From assembly GCA_030066655.1 (NCBI GenBank), contig JASJBE010000008.1, positions 1 through 64,000 of the forward strand: DNA of 64,000 bases, given 5' to 3'. The translations under genes and the position numbers were made by a program. Position 1 is the first letter of the stretch; each line of letters begins with the position of its first letter. The notes below the pieces were generated by a model that was not told where the DNA came from, ran no database searches, and saw only the letters and a program-made list of their open reading frames with translations. Below are positions 20,421 through 58,483 of this stretch, piece by piece. The stretch comes from Woeseiaceae bacterium. Lineage in GTDB: Bacteria > Pseudomonadota > Gammaproteobacteria > Steroidobacterales > Woeseiaceae.

Positions 20421-20852
20421 ATGGCCCGCGGAATCAACAAAGTCATCATCGTCGGAAACCTGGGTCAGGACCCGGATACGCGATACATGCCGTCAGGTGG
20501 CGCGGTAACCAATTTCACGGTCGCGACCAACGAGTCCTGGAAGGACAAGCAGACGGGTGAGCAGAAGGACAGGACCGAATGGCACAAGGTCGCCATGTTC
20601 GGCCGGCTGGCGGAGATTTCCGCCGAGTACCTGCGTAAGGGCTCACAGGTCTATATCGAAGGCAAGCTCCGGACCCGCAAGTGGCAGGACCGGGACGGCA
20701 ACGACCGGTACACGACGGAGATCATCGCCGACGAGATGCAGATGCTCGGTGGCCGCGGCGGGGGTTCTGCGCCGATGGGGGGTGGTGATCCGGGGCCGGG
20801 GAGTAAGCCTCCACCGCCGGCAGACGACTTCGACGACGACATCCCGTTTTAG
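20421..20852 (+). CDS. ssb: Single-stranded DNA-binding protein
   Basis: [58 protein letters not shown]-terminal DDFDDDIPF. Confidence 0.98.
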
Positions 20853-20857
20853 CACAC

Positions 20858-20974
20858 GAGGCTGTCAGCCGCCGCGATACCGCGTTGCCGCCGAAATCAA
20901 AATGCTCATGTACTTGCGTGTACACTCCGCTTTTGATTTCGTCGGCGCCTTGTCTCGCAGCACCTGACAGCCTC
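20858..20974. repeat. 117-bp nested imperfect palindrome between ssb and miaB
   Basis: GAGGCTGTCAG (20858-20868) / CTGACAGCCTC (20964-20974); GAAATCAAAA (20893-20902) / TTTTGATTTC (20931-20940); TGTAC / GTACA at the apex. Confidence 0.9.
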
Positions 20975-21035
20975 CTCAGCCACGTCGCAGGCCTGCTTTT
21001 GAGGCCCGTCTCGGGCCGACAGCAAATTTGAAGAC

Positions 21036-22373
21036 ATGAGCAAAAAGCTTTTCATCAAGACCTTTGGTTGCCAGATGAATGAGTACGATTCCGAGAAGAT
21101 GGCGGATGTGCTCAGGGAATCGCATGGCTACGAATTGACGCAGGAGCCGAAGGAGGCTGATCTGCTGCTGGTGAATACCTGTTCGATTCGTGAGAAGGCG
21201 CAGGAGAAGGTCTTCTCGGAGCTCGGTCGCTGGCGGCCGTTCAAGGATATGCGCGACGACGTCATGATCGGTGTGGGCGGTTGCGTGGCGAGCCAGGAGG
21301 GCGATGGCATCACGAAGCGCGCGCCTTTCGTCGACCTCGTGTTCGGGCCGCAGACGCTGCATCGCCTGCCAGAAATGGTCGACGAGGTCAGCTCGAAGCG
21401 ACAGTCCGTCGTCGATATCTCGTTTCCCGAGATCGAGAAGTTCGACCGTCTGCCGGAACCCCGGGCCGATGGCTGCACGGCGTTCGTGTCGGTCATGGAG
21501 GGCTGCAGCAAGTACTGCAGCTTCTGCGTCGTGCCGTACACGCGGGGCGAAGAGATCAGTCGCCCGCTCGATGATGTCATCACCGAGGTGGTCATGCTTG
21601 CCGAGCAGGGCGTGCGGGAAGTCAATCTCCTCGGGCAGAACGTCAATGCTTACCAGGGTCCGATGCACGACGGTGGGCTTGCCGACCTGGCGACCCTGAT
21701 TTACTACGTCGCCGAGATCGACGGCATCGATCGTATTCGATTCACGACGTCGCACCCGGTCGAGTTTACCGACAGCCTGGTCCAGGCCTACGCCGAGGTG
21801 CCGGAGCTTGCCAGCTACCTGCATCTGCCGGTTCAGCACGGCTCGGACCGCATCCTGTCGCTGATGAAGCGCGGTCACACGGCGATCGAATACAAGCAGA
21901 AGATCCGGAAGCTCAAGGCGGCGCGCCCGGGGATCTCGCTGTCGTCGGATTTTATCGTCGGGTTCCCCGGTGAGACGGAAGCGGATTTCGAGAAGCTCAT
22001 GAACCTGATCGCCGATGTTGGCTTCGACCAGTCCTTCAGCTTCATCTACAGCGCCCGACCCGGGACGCCGGCCGCGAGCCTCGCTGACGACACGCCCTTA
22101 GACGTCAAGAAGCAACGTTTGCAGCTGTTGCAGGCACGCATCAACCAGCAGGCCATGGCCATCTCCCGTGACATGGTAGGCACGACGCAGCGCGTGCTGG
22201 TCGAGCGTCTCTCGAAGAAGAGCGATGCCCAGGTGACCGGTCGAACAGAGAACAATCGGTGGGTCAATTTTGACGCCGATCAGTCCGTGATTGGCAGTTT
22301 CGTCGACGTCGAAATCACCGAGGCCTTGCCGAATTCGCTGCGCGGCCGGATGAAGAGCACGATCGCCGCCTAG
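21036..22373 (+). CDS. miaB: tRNA-2-methylthio-N6-dimethylallyladenosine synthase
   Basis: [15 protein letters not shown], radical [19 protein letters not shown]-terminal TRAM-like region. Confidence 0.98.
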
Positions 22374-58246: not shown

Positions 58247-58483
58247 GGCTCGCGGCCGCCGTGGATCGCCGGATCGGCTCTTTGTAAGTCACTGATTTAG
58301 AAAGCATCGGGGCGATGTTTGCCCCGACGTCCGTTCTGGCGCTAAATCGCGGTTTTTGTTTGCAAAGGCCTGCGTACTCAAGTACCATTTCGCGCCTTTC
58401 GCCCATCCGGTGAGGCATGCTCTTGCCCGGCGGGCCGTTGGCCTCCGAGCCAGCACTGACAAAACACCTAACGGATCAAAAGA

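Follow-up and report, generated by a model that had tools for sequence, protein, structure and literature searches.

What is the long nested palindrome that separates ssb from miaB in this Woeseiaceae genome: a structure that evolved in place to end or protect one transcript, or a copy of something mobile? The window analysed here is a stretch of 64,000 nucleotides, and the palindrome at 20858-20974, whose arms and apex can be read directly from the sequence, is real. As described in an earlier note on this DNA, both the outer and the inner arms are perfect, and the apex is TGTAC-TTGCG-TGTACA. The claim that the whole folds as one long hairpin also held, the RNA fold of the region reaching -60.6 kcal/mol as compared with -37.2 +/- 3.8 in dinucleotide shuffles (z = -6.2, none of 200 as good) and the DNA fold giving z = -4.1 against shuffles. 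The extent of the element had to be revised. When the match to our covariance model R1 (20855-20976, 95.9 bits) is extended by means of sister copies and of exactly bounded copies in two other genomes (G472 and G460), the element measures about 141 bp rather than 117 bp, running from the TAG stop codon of ssb to a right boundary inferred from the sister copies (Table 1). It occupies only about three quarters of the 183-nt gap that it had been thought to fill. The downstream gene, miaB, has the same direction as ssb and is 63-86% identical in 26 relatives. The answer that we consider quite probable is that the window element is a mobile, non-autonomous element (a MITE) belonging to one superfamily with ERIC and Correia/NEMIS, TA-bounded and placed at a stop codon, whose effect, if it has one, would most likely be post-transcriptional.

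Table 1. Features of the palindromic element and of the flanking genes in the window
Feature	Position	Strand	Basis
ssb, single-stranded DNA-binding protein, C-terminus DDDIPF	20421..20852	+	Translation; named from sequence
Whole element, probable ERIC-superfamily member	20850..20990 (right boundary approximately +/-3 nt)	+ (family-forward)	R1 match, sister copies, G472/G460 copies
TAG, ssb stop codon and left TA(G) terminus of the element	20850..20852	+	ssb ORF; left-end stop overlap is a family feature
Left outer arm GAGGCTGTCAG	20858..20868	+	Sequence; outer arms covary among relatives
Left shoulder GCGTTG (family GCGTTR)	20882..20887	+	Conserved in 34 diverse copies
Left inner arm GAAATCAAAA	20893..20902	+	Sequence; covariation
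Conserved apex AATGC-TCA-TGTAC-TTGCG-TGTACA-CTCC-GC	20901..20930	+	Invariant columns; exact GTDB matches
Right inner arm TTTTGATTTC	20931..20940	+	Sequence; covariation
Right shoulder GCCTTG	20947..20952	+	CCT and final G invariant, others at least 90%
Right outer arm CTGACAGCCTC	20964..20974	+	Sequence
miaB, tRNA methylthiotransferase, 445 aa	21036..22373	+	Translation; named from sequence

The element is multicopy. A BLASTN search of the bacterium's own genome (G000) with the 117 bp, one of the checks proposed in the earlier note, led to about ten related places, and a covariance model, another of them, gave 21 matches at E<1e-5. This model, R1, was built from 34 divergent copies, among them four from Chromobacterium and none from Enterobacterales or Neisseria. 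A single-copy sequence or an already catalogued family had been named as findings that would speak against a mobile element; besides the many copies, no Rfam family was matched at its gathering score, the only match being RT-19, which scored 18.6 bits where its gathering score is 78.3. A possible relative of the apex, GTACTCAAGTAC at 58374-58385 before rplM, did not hold up, since R1 recognizes only the element in the window, apart from one chance-level match elsewhere (8.2 bits, E=1.7).

Relatives are by no means confined to this lineage. Within the Pseudomonadota, R1 matches at E<=1e-5 were present in at least 149 of 399 sampled genomes, a lower bound since nine candidates were scored per genome. 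The core AATGCTCAYGTAC-N3-7-GTACRCTSCGC matches exactly at least 116 stretches in a GTDB set of 257 Gb, for which about 0.07 would be expected by chance according to our own estimate from the pattern length. Judging by record titles, the matches listed include alpha-, beta- and gammaproteobacteria, deltaproteobacterial and desulfobacterial MAGs, and also Bacteroidota, an Acidobacteriota MAG and Paenibacillus. Some Bacteroidota and Bacillota have dozens to more than 100 R1 matches each, a figure drawn from genomes in which a copy had been found beforehand; genomes chosen in this way include Fulvivirga imtechensis (132 copies), Paenibacillus camelliae (45), a 0.9-Mb Holosporales MAG (142) and a deltaproteobacterial MAG (93). 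Contamination is an unlikely explanation, because Fulvivirga and Paenibacillus are isolates. In the single isolate genome of F. imtechensis (G783, L432-L461), one left-end sequence has 261 matches. Three contigs of the IMG/VR viral collection also carry the element (L144, L145 and L146), and the 70 nt to either side of the core are the same in L144 and L145; these contigs could be prophage or host DNA.

From the outside inwards, family members consist of TA, an arm that varies with the host group, a shoulder (GCGTTR on the left, GCCTTG on the right), an inner arm and the apex GC-TCA-YGTAC-loop-GTACR-CTSC-GC, the shoulders lying at an almost constant distance from the apex. The left shoulder has an invariant GTT, preceded by a nearly invariant G and C, in the 34 diverse copies, and the apex contains a conserved internal loop, TCA (20906-20908) opposite CTCC (20925-20928). 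It is in the apex and both shoulders that sequence identity resides; the arms change in concert and keep their complementarity. Indeed, 82.4% of the cells in the arms are paired, where column shuffles give 62.2% and slid controls 33-43%. Double changes number 347 versus 128 in shuffles; neither the paired fraction nor the double-change count was reached by any of 500 shuffles. In Fulvivirga the apical stem itself is frequently exchanged, for example to TCCCG...CGGGA, with retention of the loop flanks. The proposal that selection keeps the perfect segments is thus right only in part, since sequence is conserved in the apex and shoulders but changes freely in the arms. Similarly, the middle arms described as similar do form a conserved zone, present in relatives, but their pairing is only partial (GCGTTG on the left, GCCTTG on the right).

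If an RNA helix were being kept by selection acting on the transcribed strand, G.U pairs would be expected in excess. Among 2,251 cells of the inner stem, however, G.T pairs (45) do not outnumber A.C (57), and the pairing is therefore apparently maintained at the DNA level, seemingly through selection on a DNA hairpin or through palindrome-correcting replication errors. Selection for the fold at the RNA level finds no support in this wobble test, which weakens the argument for an RNA function of the fold itself. The same figures agree with an alternative in which the element is a folded single-stranded DNA substrate, comparable with REP/RAYT or integron attC, and is moved by an enzyme that recognizes the mismatched hairpin apex. 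This would fit a family in which the conserved part is the apical internal loop with the shoulders and in which the arms keep nothing but complementarity. DDE transposases make target duplications, whereas transposition of single-stranded DNA by enzymes of the IS200/IS605 type makes none, and the TA on both sides of the element resembles a duplication of the former kind. We consider a single-stranded substrate unlikely and retain the view that the window element is a MITE of the same superfamily as ERIC and Correia/NEMIS.

The relationship with ERIC becomes apparent only at the profile level, as the window element has no BLAST match at E<=1 in an E. coli collection and the ERIC consensus none at E<=1e-6 in G000; assignment to the named ERIC family by nucleotide similarity was accordingly rejected. 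In an unfiltered R1 scan of 92 kb around 30 ERIC copies, which had been identified with BLAST, independently of R1, in five genomes of enterics, ERIC copies rank at the top (best E 4.3e-10). They score from 32.7 down to 13 bits and the first non-ERIC match 11.8 bits; since the best non-family hairpin seen elsewhere reached 14.8 bits, an individual ERIC copy counts only if it exceeds about 15 bits. For 19 of 20 distinct ERIC copies, none of 400 pair-preserving shuffles reached the observed motif score. A sequence-only model (R2) detects ERIC weakly, so that the case for ERIC rests on motifs within a common fold, and both the apex and the shoulder motifs are found there.

For Correia/NEMIS, the query was a Correia consensus, with which gonococcal copies agree at 98-99%. 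In 40 kb of Neisseria gonorrhoeae, BLAST located three Correia copies, and these are also the three best R1 matches (E 1.5e-8 to 1e-7), the next one having an E of 0.11, and a relative in Cupriavidus metallidurans has an R1 score about equal to theirs. Both shoulders are present, together with the apex in a TA-ended palindrome, and the observed score was reached by none of 2000 pair-preserving shuffles. The window element is not itself a Correia copy, since its termini differ from the Correia terminal repeats TATAGTGGATTAA...; it would rather be a superfamily relative. For both ERIC and Correia, the pair-preserving shuffles support homology over generic hairpins. We would give an even chance to the wider proposal that ERIC, Correia/NEMIS and the window element are offshoots of a single ancient superfamily that has spread horizontally and occurs in several phyla, sharing a mobilization or retention system that recognizes the interior, that is the mismatched apex and two shoulders, and not the terminal repeats.

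The ends of the element were resolved in two genomes. In G472 and G460, near-identical copies with different flanks read Y-TA, then GGGCGTGTTGACATTC...GAATGTCAACACGCCC, then TA-R, or a close variant of this, as expected for a TA target duplication. The search for target-site duplications proposed in the earlier note gave a clear picture in these relatives and a less clear one in the window, where the left TA is present and the right one is degenerate, there being no precise empty site for comparison. Equal-score copies from Providencia rettgeri (G374) and Phytobacter (G371) were considered as young copies for mapping the boundaries and were rejected; these near-identical family members (L232-L244) lie in apparent rRNA operons, along with which they probably multiplied. 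Deletion derivatives retaining little beyond both ends exist in G472 and G460 as well as in the window's own genome. An almost bare end-to-end palindrome, CTAGCAGCATGTTGACGACGTCAACATGCTGCTAG, at G000:C121:19369-19386 (L431) is apparently an element that has lost its whole interior.

Insertion sequence-like termini and TA bounds might also be taken to mean that the MITE is a deletion remnant of one local IS family and that its likeness to ERIC and Correia is convergent, for which RUP and IS630-Spn1 offer a precedent (PMC2229807). However, the termini vary with the host group while the interior is conserved across phyla, which is the opposite of what would be expected of an IS-derived MITE, and the common motifs exceed the generic-hairpin null. 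A terminal-repeat search that covered G000, Fulvivirga and those parts of G472 and G460 that were resolved disclosed no IS sharing these ends, and we rejected membership among IS-derived MITEs for want of such an autonomous partner. In G000 the terminal-repeat matches are elements or deletion derivatives only, but since this assembly is 91% complete the absence of an IS from it is no proof. On balance, descent from a local IS appears improbable to us. To our knowledge, ERIC is likewise without a known mobilizer. As a MITE related to ERIC and Correia/NEMIS, the window element would have been moved in trans by a transposase.

How, then, did the element come to lie behind ssb? Its distribution among congeners is patchy, with 0-6 R1 matches in each sampled genome, and it is absent from every congener ssb-miaB gap seen, these gaps being short or unrelated. 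They differ in length and sequence, and none provides an exact empty site for the window copy. Such patchiness, together with the element-free gaps, fits an insertion in the window lineage, which would have struck the ssb stop codon, TAG, in the orientation favoured at stops. The characterization as a MITE-like mobile element is upheld, the element being multicopy, patchy among congeners and, in recent relatives, TA-bounded. A locus-specific RNA structure evolved in place, either a terminator or a 3'-end stabilizer of ssb, could account for the stable fold and for the sense orientation at the ssb stop codon, but it is very hard to reconcile with about 20 copies next to other genes of the same genome, a dispersal that largely refutes it, with congener gaps devoid of the element, with the failure to find a U-run terminator and with stems that have no excess of G-U. 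A search of 20700-21100 for an intrinsic terminator (a G+C stem followed by a T run) found none, and there is no sign that the element replaced one, as had been supposed. In the nearest congener (G377), a different gene precedes miaB, and another long hairpin, TTGGAGCGCTTCTCG...CGAGAAGCGCTCCAA (L248, 2846-2963), starts at the stop codon of that gene; its R1 score of 14.8 bits is the highest non-family score seen. A low-scoring variant of about 101 bp, possibly a separate subfamily, recurs in some congeners (L288, L291, L294 and L297 in G391; L280, L289 and L292 in G390).

The position of the window copy is one that many copies of the family share. Of 148 copies, 63 have a gene stop near the left end and 12 near the right end (p=1.7e-9, an optimistic value, as are the other p-values, because the copies are not fully independent), counting stops from -10 to +30 nt of the element end in mechanical ORF calls with ORFs of at least 200 aa. 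In a second set of 57 copies the corresponding numbers are 28 and 5, and in 26 ERIC copies, taken in the same structural orientation, 10 and 2; ERIC thus shares the stop-codon overlap in the favoured orientation. The window copy is a clean case, with its left end on the ssb stop codon in the orientation favoured by the family. TA-directed insertion into TAA or TAG could explain the overlap with stop codons, but not the orientation, which suggests either that copies are retained because they act on the transcript or that insertion itself is oriented. Purifying selection or a preference for certain targets, and not a function, might also account for the placement at stop codons.

If the transcript is affected, the element would form part of the ssb mRNA, as a hairpin at its 3' end in the interval that separates ssb from miaB. 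The ribosomes that finish translation at the stop codon would then influence how this hairpin folds and thereby the cleavage and stability of the ssb message. A similar scheme has been proposed for ERIC in Yersinia, where, according to a review, upstream mRNA is destabilized in an orientation-dependent manner, with the participation of ribosomes and of an RNase E site (PMC2229807). In our analysis, such a post-transcriptional effect of the element, acting as RNA on the upstream ssb message, is perhaps slightly less probable than its absence.

ERIC and Correia/NEMIS are classic repeats that have been used for strain typing and studied for their control of mRNA. The window element is of a known kind, and what appears to be new, from comparison of the sequences, is the superfamily link. 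Reviews treat ERIC and Correia as separate families (PMC2229807), and our search of the freely accessible literature found no paper that unites them or describes the core or terminal sequences. If both belong to a single superfamily, whose copies run from dozens to hundreds in unrelated phyla, the place where the mobilizer of ERIC and Correia should be sought would shift. Two testable features would come with it, a rule on stop codons and a conserved core for recognition. It is tempting to think that the question of what moves ERIC would thereby turn into one of comparative genomics, namely the search for a gene that tracks the core across phyla.

The element can be compared with several other systems. 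Like the RAYT-associated REP and REPIN sequences, it forms dispersed extragenic DNA hairpins; it differs from REP in being about 141 bp long and TA-bounded, as compared with 20-40 bp (PMC3733652). With RUP of Streptococcus pneumoniae it has in common that it is small, non-autonomous and directed to TA; RUP, however, shares terminal repeats with IS630-Spn1 (PMC2229807), whereas no IS partner with the same ends was found for the window element. The resemblance to Correia/NEMIS comprises the shoulders CGGCGTTG and CGCCTTGTC, the apex GTAC...GTAC, long inverted terminal arms and TA termini (PMC2229807). The Correia inner stem is about 7-10 bp shorter, its apex flanks have diverged, and its arms and termini are unrelated. 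Correia also has a 155-bp form carrying an insert with an IHF site (PMC2229807), and the three copies seen, too few to judge, have no left-end stop-codon bias. ERIC (enterobacterial repetitive intergenic consensus, also called IRU or RU-1) has been reported from Enterobacteriaceae and Vibrionaceae (PMC10969869), and its TA ends and target duplication have been published (PMC2229807). From shoulder to apex its stem has about 2 bp more on either side, and arms and termini differ from those of the window element. Nevertheless, both are long palindromes with GCGTTG and GCCTT shoulders and the same orientation bias at stop codons, and the ERIC apex TCAC-TTAC...GTAA-GCTCC aligns with TCAY-GTAC...GTAC-RCTSC, the one differing pair being compensatory.
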